NCBI GenBank assembly: GCA_903926465.1
Contig: CAIYJE010000116.1
Coordinates: forward strand, 1 to 35,979
DNA length: 35,979 bases
Direction of reading: 5' to 3'
From: an uncultured Planctomycetales bacterium
GTDB lineage: Bacteria > Planctomycetota > Planctomycetia > Isosphaerales > Isosphaeraceae
Made by a program: the position numbers and the translations under genes. The notes beneath the pieces were generated by a model. The model ran no database searches and was not told the DNA's origin. It saw only the letters and a list, made by a program, of their open reading frames with translations. Numbering within the stretch: the stretch's first letter is position 1; every line of letters begins with the position of its first letter. Positions 10,285 to 35,881 of this stretch are shown here, piece by piece.

Positions 10285-10995
10285 TCAGACCTGGGGCTCT
10301 GGCCCTGCCAGCACGCTGCGGGGAACGCCAATGTGGGCCACATGCACGGGCCCGGTGTAGTCAGCCGCGCCCGGGGCGGCAAAGCCAATCTTGGGGGCCA
10401 CAAACGTGACCGTGGCCGTGGCACGCACGGCAATTCCCAGGGGCAGACCAAGATCGGCATCGAGCCCGGAAGGGAGGTCGAGCGCCAGGATGGGCTTGCC
10501 GCTGGAGTTCATGGCCTCAATCACCAGCCGGATCGGCCCCTCGACTGCGCGGCTTAGACCGGTCCCCAGCAGGGCATCGACCACCCAGTCGGCCTCGTGC
10601 AGCCAGGCCGTCAGCCGATCAACCGACACCGGCCCGGGCTCAACCACCGGTTCAAAGCCGGCACGGCTCAAAATTTGAAACTGGGTGCGAGCATCTGCGC
10701 TGAAGTGGGCGGGTGTTCCGAACCAGACCACCCGGGTGGGCACGCCACGCAGGTCCAGGTGGCGAGCCACCACGCCGCCATCGCCACCGTTATTGCCGGG
10801 CCCGCACAGCAGCAGCACGCGGGAGGCCGGTTCCAGCTGGTCGGCCAGCCACTCGGCGGCCCCACGTCCCGCATTCTCCATCAACACCAGCGAAGGGATG
10901 CCGAATTCCGCAACCGCCCGGGCATCCACCGCACGCACCTGGGCCCGGGTCAGAGGTGGAACGGCCGGCACTGAGCCCTGGGCCTGATGTGACAT
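10285..10995 (-). CDS. nnrE: NAD(P)H-hydrate epimerase (YjeF N-terminal domain, stand-alone)
   Basis: This enzyme interconverts the R and S hydrates of NADH and NADPH so that the dehydratase NnrD can repair them. The 236-residue product has the family landmarks: an N-terminal VDARAVAEFGIPSLVLMENAG, the Rossmann-like GPGNNGGDGGVVARHL (about residues 65-80), VVDALLGTGLSR and LDLPSGLDADLG. It lacks a C-terminal NnrD kinase-like domain, so the dehydratase must be elsewhere. The ATG at 10995 has GAGAGGG 7 bases upstream; an ATG 18 bases further up overlaps that site and is unlikely. It lies 44 bases downstream of a same-strand exported-protein gene and may be cotranscribed with it. Confidence 0.92.
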   Translation of the reverse strand: MSHQAQGSVPAVPPLTRAQVRAVDARAVAEFGIPSLVLMENAGRGAAEWLADQLEPASRVLLLCGPGNNGGDGGVVARHLDLRGVPTRVVWFGTPAHFSADARTQFQILSRAGFEPVVEPGPVSVDRLTAWLHEADWVVDALLGTGLSRAVEGPIRLVIEAMNSSGKPILALDLPSGLDADLGLPLGIAVRATATVTFVAPKIGFAAPGAADYTGPVHVAHIGVPRSVLAGPEPQV

Positions 10996-11039
10996 ACGTA
11001 CACCCTCTCCCATTTGCGAGCCAAACGCTTCAAGAACCG

Positions 11040-11846
11040 TCAAAACGCCGGTTTGTGCCTGGCAACGGCTGGGGTTCGAGCGGATCGCGCGGGGGTGAGA
11101 TGCAGATTCTTGAGGATCTTGGCAGCCGTGCGCAATTCGTCGGAGGGGCCCAGCTTGTAGTTGCGGGTGGTCTCGTGCCTCAGTTGGGTCAGGGACTCGG
11201 AGACCTGGGGATCGAGGGCCAACTCATGATATTGGGCCATCAGGGGGGTCACCAGCAGTTCCAGCTCACGGGCCGACTTGAAGCAGGCCTGGCCGGTTTT
11301 TTCCACCTCGGCGGCCGCCTTTTTGCGGTCGTCTGGTTTGGGGCTTTGGGCCTGCGCGGTGGAGACCTGGGCTTTGAGCTGGTTGGCCTGAGTTAGCAGG
11401 GCGGCATGCTGCTGGCGCAACGGGGCAAGCTGGGCATTGACCATGGTACGCATGCGGGGATGAACGTTCCCCATGCTGTTGATCTGTTGCTGCAGAGCGC
11501 CGGCCTGTTGCTGAAGGGTTTGCCACTGCATCTGCAGGTTTGCGAGATTCTCGTCATATTCAGCGATCTGCATTTGCTTCAGCATCGCCTTTTCATACTC
11601 GGCGTAAAGCAACTGCGTCTGGTTGAATTTGGTGATCGCCGGTCCTTCGTTCAGAAGGTACTTGCGATCGTCTTGGGACAACCCTTTTTCGATCAGAACC
11701 TGCTCCAGCTTGCGACGGCTGGAAGCGGCCTGGGTGGCTAAATTCGGGTCGTCGGAACTTGGGGCGTAAGCCGCGCCGTGCGCCAGGCTTGCCGTCATGA
11801 ACACCGCCCCCAGAAAACGTGCCGATACCAACCGGAAAGGATTCAT
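11040..11846 (-). CDS. Exported coiled-coil protein of unknown function
   Basis: The 268-residue product starts MNPFRLVSARFLGAVFMTAS, a signal peptide with likely cleavage near AHGAAYA. The middle (about residues 85-170) is rich in Gln, Leu and Ala with heptad-like spacing, suggesting a long coiled coil (LQMQWQTLQQQAGALQQQI). The C-terminal part is helical and basic. The ATG at 11846 has GGGAG about 9 bases upstream; a longer start at 11876 would put charged residues before the signal peptide. I recognise no family. It could be a periplasmic scaffold or OmpH-like chaperone, but nothing specific supports that. It precedes nnrE by 44 bases. Confidence 0.75.
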   Translation of the reverse strand: MNPFRLVSARFLGAVFMTASLAHGAAYAPSSDDPNLATQAASSRRKLEQVLIEKGLSQDDRKYLLNEGPAITKFNQTQLLYAEYEKAMLKQMQIAEYDENLANLQMQWQTLQQQAGALQQQINSMGNVHPRMRTMVNAQLAPLRQQHAALLTQANQLKAQVSTAQAQSPKPDDRKKAAAEVEKTGQACFKSARELELLVTPLMAQYHELALDPQVSESLTQLRHETTRNYKLGPSDELRTAAKILKNLHLTPARSARTPAVARHKPAF

Positions 11847-12336
11847 GGCAGGAATCTCCCGAGCTTGGCGGCTCAACCGGGATCAACGCCCCGAGGATCT
11901 TCGAGCCCTGGAACGCCGGGAGCGGCTGGCGGGTTCTACAGGAATAGGAATGGGGATGAGAACCGGTTTGCACCGGGCGTCATAAAGCCGACCGAGACGT
12001 TTGATCACGAGGCCGATCCATGCGATGGCGGACATACCGAACCCCCCTGCACTACACGACCCACATCCTTGAAACCCTTGCCTCGGAAATTATACGCGTT
12101 TCCAACCGGCGCATGACGAATTTCGTAGGCTTCTGTTCAGAAATATCGGTTTTGGGAGCGATTGGAAATCAGTCTGATGCACCTTCAACGGGAATTCGGG
12201 GTCGAGTTGGGGCAAGGATGGAACCGGATTGGGCGGGGTGAAGAACCTAGAGATTCGCGCTGGGTTGACAGGGTTTCTTCAAGGTTCCAAGATACAGGGA
12301 GGACGCACGGAAATCTCTCAGAAAACAGGTCCAGCC
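11847..12336. other. Divergent intergenic region without a recognised gene
   Basis: About 490 bases separate the exported coiled-coil gene (-) from the FmdB-type gene (+). Short open frames here have no good ribosome binding site or protein-like composition. Apart from the promoter candidate at 12265-12293, I see nothing definite. Confidence 0.6.
12265..12293 (+). promoter_or_regulatory. Candidate promoter for the FmdB-type zinc-ribbon gene
   Basis: A perfect TTGACA (12265-12270) is followed after 17 bases by CAAGAT (12288-12293), a weak -10 match. The gene starts 43 bases further on. Confidence 0.4.
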
Positions 12337-29633: not shown

Positions 29634-29673
29634 GAACGTGCTTGCCAGGCCCTGAGCCTTGGCAAGCACGTTC
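29634..29673 (+). terminator. Strong hairpin after the SnoaL-like gene
   Basis: GAACGTGCTTGCCA (29634-29647) pairs with TGGCAAGCACGTTC (29660-29673). The stem extends inward by GGC/GCC with one bulged A. The tail is only weakly T-rich. It probably ends transcription before the next secreted-protein gene. Confidence 0.55.
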
Positions 29674-29772
29674 GCGGGCTCTTGGGCTTCGCTTCAAAAC
29701 AGAAACATAACCGTACGGTGGTCCCGCAGACGCGGCACTCGGCAGATTTCCTGTCATACAAGAGGTTCACCT

Positions 29773-32502
29773 GTGATTCGCAATCGAGTTGCTCTCGCTC
29801 TGGCGGCGGCCGCGGTCCTCGGACTCGGCACCACCACAGCCTTTGCCCAGCGCGGCCGTGGTGGTGGCGGCGGCGGTGGCGGCCGGCCCGCAGGCGGCGG
29901 AATGGCCAGGCCCATGGGTGGCCAGATGGCCCGCCCCGCAGGCGGCGGTGGAATGGCCAGGCCGGCAGGTGGTGGCGGCATGGCCCGTCCAGCCCAGCCG
30001 ATGCAACGCCCGGCCCAGATGCCGATGCAACGTCCAGCCCAGCCGATGCAACGCCCGGCCATGCCTGGAGGCGGCATGTCCAGGCCGGCCCAAATGCCCG
30101 CGCAACGGCCCAATATCAGCATGCCCCAGAACCGACCGGCCACCATGCCCGGCAATGTGGGCCGACCCAACGTTCCCCAGAATCGACCCACCACCATGCC
30201 CGGCCAGGTCGGCGGTGGCATGAATCGACCCACCACCATGCCCGGCCAGGTCGGCGGTGGCATGAACCGACCCGGTGGCGCGGGGGGTATGAATCGACCC
30301 ACCACCATGCCCGGCCAGGTCGGCGGTATTGGTGGCATGAATCGGCCCACCACCCTACCCGGCCAGGTCGGCGGTGGTAATCGTCCCCCTTGGGGCGGTG
30401 GCAATGTTGGGAATCGACCGACCACCTTGCCCGGCCAAGTGGGTGGCGGCATGAACCGACCCGGCGGCGTGGGTGGAATTGGTGGCATGAATCGGCCCAC
30501 CACCTTGCCCGGCCAAGTGGGTGGCGGCATGAACCGACCCGGCGGCGGCGGCGGTGGGATCAACCCCGGCAACCGACCCGGCGGTATTGGTGGCATGAAT
30601 CGGCCCACCACCCTGCCCGGCCAGGTGGGCGGCGGGAACCGGCCCCCTTGGGGCGGTGGCGGTACAGGCGGTGGTAACTTCAACCCCGGCAACCGACCTG
30701 GCGGCATTGGCGGTGGCAACTTCAACCCCGGTAACCGACCCGGCGGCGTGGGTGGAATTGGTGGCATCGGCGGAGCTGGTGGGAACCGCCCTGGGTTTGG
30801 CGGTAGCGGAACCTGGAATGGCGGCAATCGCCCTGGCGGTGGTAACTGGGGCGGCAATGGTAACAACTGGGGCGGGAACCGGCCCGGTATCGGTGGCGGC
30901 AACAACAATAACATTGGTAACACCACCAATATCAACGTCTCCAACCGCCCTGGCGGCGGTGGCAACTGGGGCGGCGGTGGCAACTGGGGTGGTGGTGGCA
31001 ACTGGGGCGGAAATCGGCCCGGCGGTGGTAACTGGGGCGGCGGTGGTTACAACAACTGGAACGGCAATCGTCCCGGTGGTGGTTGGTACGGCGGCCGGCC
31101 TGGCGGCAACACGGTGGTGAATAACAACTACTACGGCCCCGGCTGGAGTGGCGCCAACTACGGCAACTGGTACCACGGTGGTTCTGGCAGCGCTTTCTGG
31201 GGTGGTTTCGCCGGTGCCATGACGGGTGTGGGGATCAGCAACCTTCTCAGGCCCAACTATGGCTATGGCATGGGCTATGGCTACGGTGGTTATGGCATGG
31301 GTTACGGTATGGGAATGTACAACTACGGCAGCATGTACAACACCATGGGCTATTACCCATCGGCCTGGACCATGCCGATGTATGGAAGCTGGGGCCTGGG
31401 TGGCGTGGCCAACAACTGGATGACCTCCAGCTACATGAACCCCTATGTCACGCCGGCCACTCAGACCGTGATCGTGCAGCAGCCCGTGCCGGTGGTCATT
31501 GACGCCTCGGGCGTTCAGCAGCAGGCACCCGCCACCCAGCAAATGGTGGCCTATGACTATTCCAAGCCGATCGACCTGGCCTCTGCGCCGAGCGACGAGC
31601 AGACCGCGGAATCGGCCCAGAAGATGTTCGAATCGGCGCGAGAGCGATTCAAAGCGGGTGACTACGGCCAGGCCCTGTCGCTGTCTGATCAGGCGCTCAC
31701 CCAGCTTCCCAATGACCCGACCCTGCACGAGTTCCGGGCGCTCGCCCTGTTCGCGTTGAAGCGGTATGACGAAGCCGCGGCCACCGATTACGCCGTGCTT
31801 TCGGCCGGTCCAAGCTGGAACTGGGCCACCATGGTCGGGCTCTACCCCAACGTGGAAGCCTACACGGCCCAGATCCGCGACCTCGAAGCCTTTGCCAAGG
31901 CCAACCCAATGGCCGCCGCGCCCCAGTTCTTGCTGGCATACCACTACCTGGTGCAAGACCACAAAGACGCGGCCGCCACGCGGTTCGCCAAGGTGGCCGA
32001 AATGCAGCCCAAGGACGAACTTTCTGCGAAGTTCGCCAAACTGCTTGAAGTGAACAAGGCCGCCCTGGCCGCCGCACCGGCCGCCGGTGCTCCAGCCGCT
32101 GCGGGCGCCGCTCAGCCAACCGAGGTGGCTCAGAACGTCCCTGGGAATCCACCGGTGACCGGTGGTGCAGCCCCCGAGGCAGCCCAGGCCAAGGTCGAAC
32201 CGCCGCCACCACCGCCCGAGACGCTGGCCGGCACCTGGACCGCCAAGCCAGACGCCAAGGTGACCATCACCCTGACACTGGGCACCGACGGTGCCTACAC
32301 CTGGTCGATCGTTCAGGGCGGACAAACCCAGACCATCACCGGCAAAGCCGGCTACAAAGATGATGTGCTGGTTTTGAACCAAGAGGAGGGCCCCCCCTTG
32401 GCCGGCAAGATCAAACTTGATGCCGCCACCAACTCCTTCACGTTCAAACCCCCAGGCGCACCCGAGAGCGTAGATGGCCTGACGTTCTCCAAGCAAAGCT
32501 GA
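29773..32502 (+). CDS. Large secreted Gly-rich repeat protein with TPRs and a C-terminal beta-rich domain
   Basis: The GTG at 29773 has AGAGG 7 bases upstream and gives a clear signal peptide (MIRNRVALALAAAAVLGLGT, cleavage after AFA). The 909-residue product is modular. First comes a Gly/Arg/Met/Pro-rich segment with MQRPAQ units, then seven RPTT(M/L)PGQVGG repeats. Asn/Trp/Gly repeats (GGNWGGGGNWGG) and a Tyr/Gly/Met segment (about 495-520) follow. TPR-like helices lie at about 615-765 (ARERFKAGDYGQALSLSDQA). A short beta-rich domain ends the protein (about 816-909, LAGTWTAKPDAKVTITLTLG). Similar designs occur in planctomycetes. The repeats suggest an extracellular matrix or cell-surface role; no enzyme is recognised. 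Confidence 0.85.
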   Translation: MIRNRVALALAAAAVLGLGTTTAFAQRGRGGGGGGGGRPAGGGMARPMGGQMARPAGGGGMARPAGGGGMARPAQPMQRPAQMPMQRPAQPMQRPAMPGGGMSRPAQMPAQRPNISMPQNRPATMPGNVGRPNVPQNRPTTMPGQVGGGMNRPTTMPGQVGGGMNRPGGAGGMNRPTTMPGQVGGIGGMNRPTTLPGQVGGGNRPPWGGGNVGNRPTTLPGQVGGGMNRPGGVGGIGGMNRPTTLPGQVGGGMNRPGGGGGGINPGNRPGGIGGMNRPTTLPGQVGGGNRPPWGGGGTGGGNFNPGNRPGGIGGGNFNPGNRPGGVGGIGGIGGAGGNRPGFGGSGTWNGGNRPGGGNWGGNGNNWGGNRPGIGGGNNNNIGNTTNINVSNRPGGGGNWGGGGNWGGGGNWGGNRPGGGNWGGGGYNNWNGNRPGGGWYGGRPGGNTVVNNNYYGPGWSGANYGNWYHGGSGSAFWGGFAGAMTGVGISNLLRPNYGYGMGYGYGGYGMGYGMGMYNYGSMYNTMGYYPSAWTMPMYGSWGLGGVANNWMTSSYMNPYVTPATQTVIVQQPVPVVIDASGVQQQAPATQQMVAYDYSKPIDLASAPSDEQTAESAQKMFESARERFKAGDYGQALSLSDQALTQLPNDPTLHEFRALALFALKRYDEAAATDYAVLSAGPSWNWATMVGLYPNVEAYTAQIRDLEAFAKANPMAAAPQFLLAYHYLVQDHKDAAATRFAKVAEMQPKDELSAKFAKLLEVNKAALAAAPAAGAPAAAGAAQPTEVAQNVPGNPPVTGGAAPEAAQAKVEPPPPPPETLAGTWTAKPDAKVTITLTLGTDGAYTWSIVQGGQTQTITGKAGYKDDVLVLNQEEGPPLAGKIKLDAATNSFTFKPPGAPESVDGLTFSKQS
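30181..30660 (+). repeat. Coding repeat array, seven NRPTT(M/L)PGQVGG units
   Basis: The first two units lie 42 bases (14 residues) apart at 30181 and 30223. Later units are spaced by inserted Gly/Asn/Pro stretches. DNA identity between units is high, so the array can expand or contract by recombination and may be mis-sized in short-read assemblies. A degenerate unit (RPATMPGNVG) precedes it. Confidence 0.85.
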
Positions 32503-32949: not shown

Positions 32950-33081
32950 ATGAGCCAGCATGCCGTGACAGCTCAGGATGGCTGCCCCGTGAGGCTGATT
33001 GCCTTCCATTTACCCCAGTTTCATCCGATCCCGGAGAATGATGACTGGTGGGTCGGGGGTTCACGGAATGGGCCAACGTAA
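32950..33081 (+). pseudogene. 5' fragment of the WbsX/GT4 gene (frame broken)
   Basis: The ATG at 32950 has a strong ribosome binding site (AAGGAGG, 9 bases upstream). It encodes the true N-terminus of a WbsX-like domain: [20 protein letters not shown], then W. The family continues W-W-G-x-G-FTEW. Here the frame instead reads VGGSRNGPT and stops at 33079, while GRGFTEW appears in the next frame from 33051. Restoring one G in the GGG at 33050-33052 joins the two. So this is the start of the gene described at 33048 and 34814, cut off by an apparent one-base deletion or a sequencing error. Confidence 0.75.
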
Positions 33082-34817
33082 CTCGAGCCCGGCCCCTCTT
33101 CGGCGGACATGATCAGCCCAGGTTACCGGCGGATCTGGGGTTTTATGATTTGCGTTTACCAGAGGCCCGGGCCGCCCAGGCGGAGCTGGCGCGAGCGTAT
33201 GGTATTGAGGGGTTTTGCTACTGGCATTACTGGTTCCATGGCCAGCGCCTGCTGGAACGACCCGTCAATGACATTCTGGCAACCGGTGAACCCAACTTCC
33301 CCTTCTGTCTGGCCTGGGCCAATGAATCGTGGTCTCGATCTTGGCTGGGCGATGACCGCGAGATCCTGATCGAACAAACCTACTCCGAGCAGGATGACCG
33401 GGCCCATGCGCGCTGGCTGGCACAAGCCTTTGCCGATCCACGCTATATCCACGTGCATGGCCGGCCGTTGCTGGTGATTTACAAACCGAAGGCTTTGCCC
33501 AGCAGCCAGCGGACCACGAATTTGATTCGAGAGGAATGCCTGCGGCTCCGGTTACCCAATCCTTACCTGGTTGGCATCGACGCCCATTGCCCAGGTACCG
33601 ATCTGCGCACACTTGGTTTTGATATGACCGAGCATCACGAGCCGCAACTCAGTGCCCTGGGTGCCAATGCGTTTCAAGACAATCCGGGGTTCGCAAAGCT
33701 CAAACGCAATCTCCGCAAAGGGATTCCGCACGCAGGCTACAAGATCTACTCGTACGCCGAAGCCACCCGGAGAATGGCGACGGTGCGGCCCAGTTTCTCC
33801 CATTTCCCCTGCTGTTTCGTGGGCTGGGATAACACGGCCAGACGGGGCAAGAACGCGATTGTGATGGTGGATGGCAGTCCTCGCCTCTTTGAGGAGCAAC
33901 TCGCTCAGATGGTCTCCGGGGTCATGCACAAGCCTCCCCAGGAACGGGTGGTGTTTATCAACGCCTGGAATGAGTGGGCGGAAGGGATGTACCTGGAGCC
34001 TGACCAGAAACATGGTCACCAATATCTTCAGGTGGTACGCCGCGTTGTAGAAAATGCCAGCTCCGCATTTGACGCAGATGCTGGCCAAGGGTTTCAGGGC
34101 TCTGCTTCTGAACCAATTCAAACATCACACATCCGCGTTCACGGCGCGACCGATTCTCCCCAGGGCATTCCACGCCTGGCCTCTCTGTACCGGCAAACAA
34201 GTAACCCGATTGGCTCCGAGCAGCATTCGTATCGTGTGGACGGTATCAACCGAGACGTACCTGAGAATCAAAACGATCTGCTGGAGGTTGAGGCCCAAGT
34301 GACTACGTCTCCCATGACCGCCAGAATTTACGAACCGTCCATAACTCAATACGTTGATCCGAATCATCTGTCCTGTTTTCGGATGCTGGATTCGATCGAG
34401 CCAGAGCGTAACTTACTCTTGCAAGAAAACCGTAACCTGATGGCACAACTGGCAGACATCCGCGCTTCACGAGCCTTCAAGCTGGCCCGCAAGTTGAACC
34501 GGGTAATTATGAGTCTAGTTCCGCCAGGTTCAAGAAGGCGACGGCTGGCCAGGAACAGCTATCGGGGCCTGAGGTCACTTCCAAGGGTCTGTCGTCGGTT
34601 GCATCAGCAGGTCACACAGCAAAGGGATCGTGACCATGCTTCGCAGCCTGATGCCTGCCAACCGCTTGTGCGACCTCAGCAACCGGAACGGCGAGCCAAG
34701 GGGTGCATCCTGGTGGTTGACCATCAGGTTCCGATGCTTCATAGCGATGCTGGATCTGTCCGCATGTCAAACATCTTGGAAATTCTGGGGGGGGGGGGGC
34801 GTGCGGACACCAAGTGA
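33048..34817 (+). CDS. WbsX-like polysaccharide biosynthesis domain plus coiled coil (middle part of a frameshifted gene)
   Basis: This 589-codon frame continues the N-terminus encoded from 32950. Residues 1-340 match the WbsX/glycosyltransferase GH99-like family found in O-antigen and capsule loci: [70 protein letters not shown] and [20 protein letters not shown] variable linker follows, then a short coiled coil ([20 protein letters not shown]) and a basic stretch. Near 34700 a GT4 N-terminal lobe begins ([20 protein letters not shown]). The frame then enters a 13-G tract and stops 6 codons later. The listed GTG start is not the real one. Confidence 0.8.
34787..34799 (+). repeat. 13-base G homopolymer inside the glycosyltransferase gene
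   Basis: Thirteen consecutive G residues interrupt the reading frame. With 13 the frame ends in RADTK and a stop at 34815. Run lengths of 5, 8, 11 or 14 join it to the downstream frame, which reads [14 protein letters not shown] directly after the tract. Long G/C tracts in surface-glycan genes are classical slipped-strand phase-variation sites, and also common assembly errors. Confidence 0.85.
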
Positions 34818-35881
34818 CCTTCTTTCCCAATTATCCAGACACCTCGGCAGCCAACCTGGAAGCAATCCAGAACATGGGAGTTGAGGTGATTCAGCCGCCG
34901 CTGTTCAGTGACCTGCGGGCTTATCTCAAGGAATACGGTTCTGAGTATTCGCTGGTCATTCTCTCGCGTGCCGATATTGCGGCCCAACATCTGAGCGTGG
35001 TGCGATATTACGCGCCTCAGGCCAAGGTGGTCTTTGACACGGTCGATCTTCATTTCTTGCGTGAAGAACGGCAGGTAAAACTGAGCGGCAGCGCGGAGCA
35101 AACCAAGCGGGCCGAACGCCGCAGACGCCAGGAACTGACACTGGTGAAGTTGGCCGACTTGACCCTGGTTGTCAGCCCCTTGGAAAAAGCGATTCTTGAG
35201 GCGCAAGTTCCTGGCTGCACAATCCAGGTCTTACCAACTATTCAGGGTCTTACGCTCCGCAATTGCCCTGGCTTTGATGATCGAACCGATCTGCTGTTCA
35301 TCGGTGGCTTTGATCATCCACCCAATGTGGATGCGGTCCTCCACTTTGTCTCCAAGGTCTTTCCACACATCCAGGACAAGATTCCCGGCATAGTCTTTCA
35401 TGTGATCGGGTCCAACACGCCAGCCTGCATCTTCGACCTGGCAGGACCTGGGATTCGAGTGCATGGTCGTATTCCTGATGTTGAACCGCTGTTTGACCGG
35501 TGCCGGCTTTCCGTGGCCCCGCTGCGTTATGGTGCGGGCGTGAAAGGAAAAGTGAATCAGAGCATGGCCCTGGGCGTACCCGTGGTGGCAACCTCTATCG
35601 CCGCCGAGGGAATGCATCTGGAGCATGAGCATAATATTCTGATCGCCGATGAACCGGAAGAGTTCGCAAACGAGGTGGTGCGGCTCTGGAATGACCCAGA
35701 GCTTTGGAATAATCTTGTTGGAAATGGATATAAGAATATCCAAATGCATTTTTCAACCGCAGCTGCCCAGGCAAAGATTGATCAACTACTGGCCTGGGCG
35801 GGACTCAACGCTGGAACCCAAGAAGAGCGAGAGGCGAATCCCAACGATCGACCATCTCTAGCTTTCATTGAACCCTCGTGA
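34814..35881 (+). CDS. GT4-family glycosyltransferase (3' part of the frameshifted WbsX/GT4 gene)
   Basis: The frame from 34814 encodes 355 residues of a GT-B glycosyltransferase lacking its first 30-40 residues, which lie upstream of the G tract in another frame. Landmarks are VVFDTVDLHFLREERQ, ADLTLVVSPLEKAIL, LLFIGGFDHPPNVDAVLHF, VHGRIPDVEPLFDRCRLSVA and the donor-site region PLRYGAGVKGKVNQSMALGV followed by PVVATSIAAEGM. This family transfers sugars from nucleotide donors to a growing glycan. The GTG at 34814 has no ribosome binding site of its own. I infer that the natural protein runs from 32950 to 35881 as one chain of about 975 residues. Confidence 0.85.
   Translation: MTFFPNYPDTSAANLEAIQNMGVEVIQPPLFSDLRAYLKEYGSEYSLVILSRADIAAQHLSVVRYYAPQAKVVFDTVDLHFLREERQVKLSGSAEQTKRAERRRRQELTLVKLADLTLVVSPLEKAILEAQVPGCTIQVLPTIQGLTLRNCPGFDDRTDLLFIGGFDHPPNVDAVLHFVSKVFPHIQDKIPGIVFHVIGSNTPACIFDLAGPGIRVHGRIPDVEPLFDRCRLSVAPLRYGAGVKGKVNQSMALGVPVVATSIAAEGMHLEHEHNILIADEPEEFANEVVRLWNDPELWNNLVGNGYKNIQMHFSTAAAQAKIDQLLAWAGLNAGTQEEREANPNDRPSLAFIEPS

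Follow-up and report, generated by a model that had tools for sequence, protein, structure and literature searches.

A 13-G tract at a frame break in a planctomycete WbsX-GT4 glycosyltransferase gene, a candidate slipped-strand switch in a copy with a second frameshift

The window analysed here, a stretch of 35,979 nucleotides, is contig C116 of the draft genome of an uncultured Planctomycetales bacterium (6.89 Mb, 207 contigs, completeness 99.66). Towards its end, on the forward strand, lies a gene that joins a WbsX region to a GT4 domain and changes reading frame at an uninterrupted run of 13 G (34787-34799). An earlier note on this DNA had placed such a run at the frame change of a WbsX/GT4 protein, and direct reading of the sequence confirms it, with two frames meeting at the tract. 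The upstream frame corresponds to an ORF call at 33048-34817 and matches the WbsX family (PF14307, E 2.5e-116, 389.4 bits against a curated cut-off of 25.1), while the downstream frame, called from GTG 34814 as an ORF at 34814-35881, matches the GT4 family (PF13692, Glyco_trans_1_4, E 2.4e-23, 83.4 bits against a curated cut-off of 27). The profile of the PEP-CTERM/XrtA system glycosyltransferases (TIGR03087), tested on the downstream piece alone, gave 121 bits, below its curated cut-off of 316.65. As delimited by Pfam match and comparison, the WbsX region covers 32950-34034, and it is followed in the upstream frame by a translated linker without a Pfam match (34035-34703). The GT4 domain begins in the same frame at 34704-34786 (CILVVDHQ...), where translation and alignment place strand beta-1 and helix alpha-1, is interrupted by the tract at the end of helix alpha-1, a site set by eye on a homologue model, and resumes in the downstream frame at 34800-35881. 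The two frames overlap at 34814-34817, where the GTGA read directly from the sequence holds both the upstream-frame stop and the downstream-frame GTG. There is no other stop around the tract in 580 codons of the upstream frame and 359 codons of the downstream frame (939 in all), and codon usage scores positively both before and after the tract. Judging by the family names, the gene is probably of a surface-glycan type. Elsewhere in the window, two ORFs in neighbouring frames of the minus strand (10285-11043 and 11040-11876) overlap by four bases and represent either an operon pair or another frameshift, and a long TPR-containing ORF (29659-32502) holds tandem repeats of 18-42 bases at 29881-31029.

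The frame of the gene is also broken a second time, independently of the tract. GTG 33048 is merely the mechanical start of the ORF call, the likely WbsX start being ATG 32950, and a net one-base shift occurs among short G runs at 33046-33059 on the same strand, with no long run present at the site. Comparison of WbsX motifs shows this second frameshift, which the earlier note had mentioned, to be real: the motif WWG[R/K/N]GFTEW, which covers the break point, lies in a single frame in six of the seven WbsX loci examined, three of them paralogues from the same genome, and is absent from the seventh (L208). Consequently, full-length expression does not depend on the length of the tract alone, and slippage alone cannot restore the gene from its ATG. 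The statement of the earlier note that tracts of 5, 8, 11 or 14 G would give a full-length product is thus arithmetically right for the tract and fails for the gene, in which the second frameshift remains. The WbsX part is 64% identical to a relative, and the GT4 part is 55% identical to its own paralogue, which is encoded in a single open frame on contig C195 of the same genome; among named homologues, the GT4 part matches best one from a Planctomycetota MAG (51%). A search of the genome for a further copy of the locus found nothing more than 67% identical at the DNA level. A motif scan of the GT4 loci found WbsX and GT4 within one ORF in none of the 83 homologue loci, and the two nearest WbsX relatives are ORFs of 450 and 436 codons, so that the arrangement of the gene is unusual in its own right.

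A strict GT4 motif search placed the tract site in only eight of the 83 homologue loci, and tblastn was used instead, which located it in 81, the remaining two (L061 and L107) lying too close to the end of a contig. The G runs at the site are at most three bases long in 48 loci, two in 19, four in 11, five in two and six in one. None of the 81 homologues thus carries more than six G at the matching position; this is weak evidence, as all of them are distant, with at most 55% identity, and none of the 39 relatives compared is congeneric. The lack of a long G tract in any relative had been named beforehand as a finding that would speak against a switch, and these distant homologues do lack it. 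The stretch that corresponds to the tract is gap-free and without length change in all ten aligned homologues. In a structure model of a homologue (mean pLDDT 87, with a helix at 32-46 and a strand at 50-55), the tract would fall at the end of helix 32-46, as read by eye from the alignment, and extra glycines at this helix end, even if in frame, may be harmful.

Long G runs are over-represented in this genome. Using a first-order Markov model built from 48 kb of the genome, window included, 7.5 runs of at least 12 G and 2.3 runs of at least 13 G would be expected in 6.89 Mb, against 22 and 18 observed. Runs of eight and nine G, on the other hand, fall far below expectation (59 vs 554 and 18 vs 172, respectively), and those of 10-11 G number an estimated 10-12. 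The runs of at least 12 G comprise four of 12, eight of 13, four of 14, one of 16, two of 18, two of 21 and one of 35. The length distribution therefore has a second peak at 13, with the middle lengths depleted and the long ones in excess. Judged from the window alone the excess is weak evidence, since dinucleotide shuffles average 2.06 nine-G matches and 10 of 100 reach the five overlapping matches observed. Runs of at least 12 A, found in nine of the 40 genomes searched, are absent from this one. Runs of at least 12 G occur in 24 of the 40 (this genome included), among them assemblies of one to five contigs, and the idea that such runs are peculiar to the present draft was rejected for this reason; runs of at least 11 G are found in ten of the 12 relatives with ten contigs or fewer. 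In Isosphaera pallida, G patterns are described as strongly over-represented, according to an excerpt of PMC4060949. Four contigs of the draft (C8, C63, C90 and C207) have a G run of 18-35 at one end or a few bases from it, and the assembly may be breaking at long G tracts. No repeat element common to the tract flanks was seen among the 30 most-shared 13-letter words listed for 48 flanks, each of which occurs at two loci at most. Two intergenic tracts (L017 and L026) are followed on their 3' sides by similar short words (GAGGTGCCTG...CCATTTTGG), noticed by eye, which possibly belong to a small repeat family.

The gene context was examined for 48 tracts of at least nine G, namely every one of the 22 with at least 12 G, together with 26 of the tracts of 9-11 G, whose number is estimated at 28-30. 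For most long tracts the nearest genes were assigned by Pfam, and for those of 9-11 G, except L235, the context was read from open frames and codon usage. Four of the 48 tracts are at contig ends. Among the other 44, three break a gene, two lie in frame within one (L233 and L246) and 39 are intergenic or at a gene edge. Two tracts whose surrounding open frames have non-coding scores (L017 and L024) were counted as intergenic, and those at gene edges include one at the 3' terminus of a grpE ORF (L021). Long G tracts are hence rare within genes; runs of eight G lie in frame within genes in 19 of 59 cases. A stricter automatic rule, by which 1387 of 2908 random positions were in-frame coding and 27 of 2908 were frame switches, called a frame switch at only one of the tracts of at least nine G, that of a DNA methyltransferase gene (L018). 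The window tract and L235 lay under its threshold and were called by a laxer rule and reading, as was the in-frame status of L233; the rate at random positions (27/2908) is not taken as a p-value for the tracts, as the automatic rule caught L018 alone. Two 8-base tracts flagged automatically as switches (L291 and L294) were rejected, because reading by hand revealed neighbouring genes in both cases; the downstream ORF of L291 matches PF06439 and its upstream ORF has no Pfam match, and L294 has no Pfam match. Genes of the planctomycete cytochrome C and DUF1553 families (Pfam) were seen near tracts in this genome; together with its 83 DUF1501 matches and the Planctomycetota MAG homologue of the GT4 part, they agree with the DNA coming from a planctomycete. 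At L020 (contig C106, 3001-3013, minus strand), for example, 13 G separate the stop of a DUF1553 gene from the ATG of a DUF1501 gene, whose translation this tract might tune.

Besides the WbsX-GT4 gene, two other genes of this genome are broken at G runs, and in all three the G's are on the coding strand. The first is the type III Mod methyltransferase gene L018 (contig C101, 1748-1761, minus strand), in which 14 G sit between TGQA and RFAANTETSGRFHTNWLNMM. Its downstream piece matches MTase_III of PADLOC (E 1.7e-144) as well as PF01555, and its upstream piece, which has no Pfam match and only NCBIfam matches below cut-off, aligns with the same ORFs of relatives. The gene thus has the makings of a phasevarion-type mod gene, that is, a type III Mod with a repeat tract in its frame. 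It is adjoined by a DUF4391 gene, and a putative partner Res gene may also be present, judging by eye from what looks like the beginning of an ORF close to the end of the contig. The longest G run in the loops of its homologues is four (eleven loops, one being that of its own paralogue and one too distant to compare). A type III mod paralogue in the same genome (L196; contig C160, 198500-202500) has a frameshift at about 1392-1407 that involves no long homopolymer tract. The second is a surface-protein-like gene (L235; contig C64, 502-510, minus strand) that is broken by nine G about 105 codons from its start and reads GLEGLEQRTLLS followed by a G/N/T/S-rich stretch. Neither piece has a Pfam match and the downstream piece has no NCBIfam match; we take the gene to resemble the giant surface proteins of planctomycetes. 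That the three broken genes are of kinds known for phase variation is suggestive and would lend some support to a switch, by a comparison made post hoc; dispensable genes are also those most tolerant of breaks.

In the 12 relatives with few contigs, 30 of the 62 runs of at least 11 G were analysed. In one of them, assembled as a single contig (G035), a helicase gene of hrpB type is cut in two by a G/C tract of 12 bases (L144, about 1502-1513), and both parts of this gene match helicase domains and HrpB_C in Pfam. The helicase gene is not of a contingency type and counts against reading such tracts as switches. In another relative a run of 11 G lies in frame within a kinase-WD40 gene (L137), and two further loci (L138 and L160) have no Pfam match.

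Taking these observations together, we lean, by little more than an even chance, towards the view that the tract is genuine and mutable and operates in the manner of a slip-strand switch, with both the tract and the upstream frameshift now keeping this copy off. In the mechanism we propose, a short G run at the site, of the kind seen in homologues with at most six G, was most likely expanded by slippage into the present 13-G tract, at which replication strand slippage would continue to add and remove G's. The downstream GT4 part would thereby be moved in and out of frame, as in a slipped-strand translational switch, and we infer that tract length would vary between cells and that GT4 activity would follow it. 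For G/C tracts of 12-13 bases in C. jejuni, an extract of PMC8224891 leads to deletion rates of roughly 0.003-0.004 per division; such rates make slippage at the 13-G tract very likely, possibly at a lower rate in another repair background. At 13 G the tract is within, or slightly longer than, the lengths that switch in known systems. A contingency gene carries a simple repeat inside its reading frame, as the 13 G are here, with a mutability that their length suggests; its frame is otherwise intact, so that slippage alone gives ON, which the frameshift at 33046-33059 precludes in the present gene; and, as a supporting rather than a defining feature, its tract recurs in relatives, which it does in none of the 81 homologues. 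We therefore do not class the WbsX-GT4 gene as phase-variable, since its frame is also broken elsewhere and since it is known from the assembled allele alone. As it reads, this allele is off twice and at present would be a non-functional or locked-off copy. The ON/OFF switch put forward in the earlier note accordingly has on its side the tract, the break in the frame that it causes, the excess of long G runs across the genome and two other broken genes, and has against it the second frameshift, the homologues and the mainly intergenic or gene-edge position of the tracts. That selection ever favoured switching appears doubtful to us.

The strongest competing explanation, which we hold to be possible and clearly less probable than a switch-like tract, is that of a decaying gene, in which the upstream frameshift, or some other event, first put the glycosyltransferase out of action and the later growth of the G run was neutral, never yielding a useful switch. 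Two frame breaks in one gene are what decay would leave, the 39 of 44 tracts outside genes or at their edges are what neutral growth predicts, and both the frameshift without a long tract in the methyltransferase paralogue on C160 and the split helicase gene of the single-contig relative fit the same account. Yet the gene is otherwise well kept, with no further stop in its 939 codons and with the above identities of its WbsX part to a relative and its GT4 part to a paralogue, and all three of the G-broken genes found are of a contingency type.

A sequencing or assembly error, by which the true tract length differs, the upstream frameshift is likewise erroneous and the gene is intact, seems improbable. 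Long homopolymers are difficult for sequencing platforms, the draft is in 207 contigs, four of its 22 runs of at least 12 G (one of them of 35 G) are at contig ends, and the two breaks fall within the same gene. Against this, the DUF1501 family of the genome is nearly free of frameshifts: internal stops are missing from all 83 of its matches, and 78 of them run in a single open frame over 320 or more of the 390 positions; among the five partial ones, two are found together in one open frame and two in short open frames (77 and 126 codons). Furthermore, a Pfam scan of 20 ORFs of the window assigned 11 of them to a family, in every case without a change of frame, and the 8-G runs show the in-frame cases noted above, with both automatic switch flags among them traced to neighbouring genes. 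Indel noise is thus low in the conserved genes checked, the 13-G run itself being hard to size, and an error is less likely than the earlier note had feared. Split or coupled expression, in which a single allele would make both parts by stopping at the TGA past the tract and restarting at GTG 34814, or through RNA polymerase slippage, has the GTGA overlap in its favour and is very improbable, given that the paralogue and the homologues are single-frame through the tract site and that, on the homologue model, a restart product would miss beta-1 and alpha-1 of the GT4 domain.

Returning to the tract as a slip-strand switch, its closest parallels are the poly-G glycosyltransferase and surface genes of Campylobacter, with which the WbsX-GT4 gene shares a coding-strand, slip-prone and frame-breaking G tract in a gene of putative surface-glycan type. 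The setting differs, in that ORFs contain 82% of the poly-G tracts of a Campylobacter draft set, according to an excerpt of PMC6321876, whereas most are intergenic here. Tracts over 13 are rare in Campylobacter according to an extract of PMC8224891, whereas the peak here is at 13, and the WbsX-GT4 gene also has its second frameshift. The modH gene of H. pylori has, according to part of PMC3230613, coding tracts of between 9 and 15 G, some lengths being ON and others OFF, and L018 is like the OFF alleles of modH in that a run of 14 G breaks the frame of a type III Mod; unlike modH, it belongs to a planctomycete and is known here from the sequence of one allele. Among type III mod genes in REBASE, 17.4% hold simple repeats capable of switching, as stated in an extract of PMC7394358. 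Frame transitions have been tabulated for two planctomycete genomes, as far as an excerpt of PMC3711429 goes, and no report of phase variation in planctomycetes appeared among the matches listed by a literature search, judged by title and abstract opening.

We regard it as somewhat unlikely, and offer it tentatively, that a small set of poly-G switches, comprising a surface-glycan glycosyltransferase, a type III DNA methyltransferase driving a phasevarion and a surface protein, exists here outside the classical host-associated groups on the basis of a growth of G runs to about 13 in the lineage. Even if neutral, the second peak at 13, with few of the long runs in genes, is a measurable mutational feature of the genome. 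Should sequencing reads reveal a mixture of tract lengths here, the planctomycetes, a mostly environmental phylum, would be added to the groups with candidate contingency genes, a candidate phasevarion among them, and it would become possible to test whether glycan switching makes these bacteria resistant to phages or grazers.
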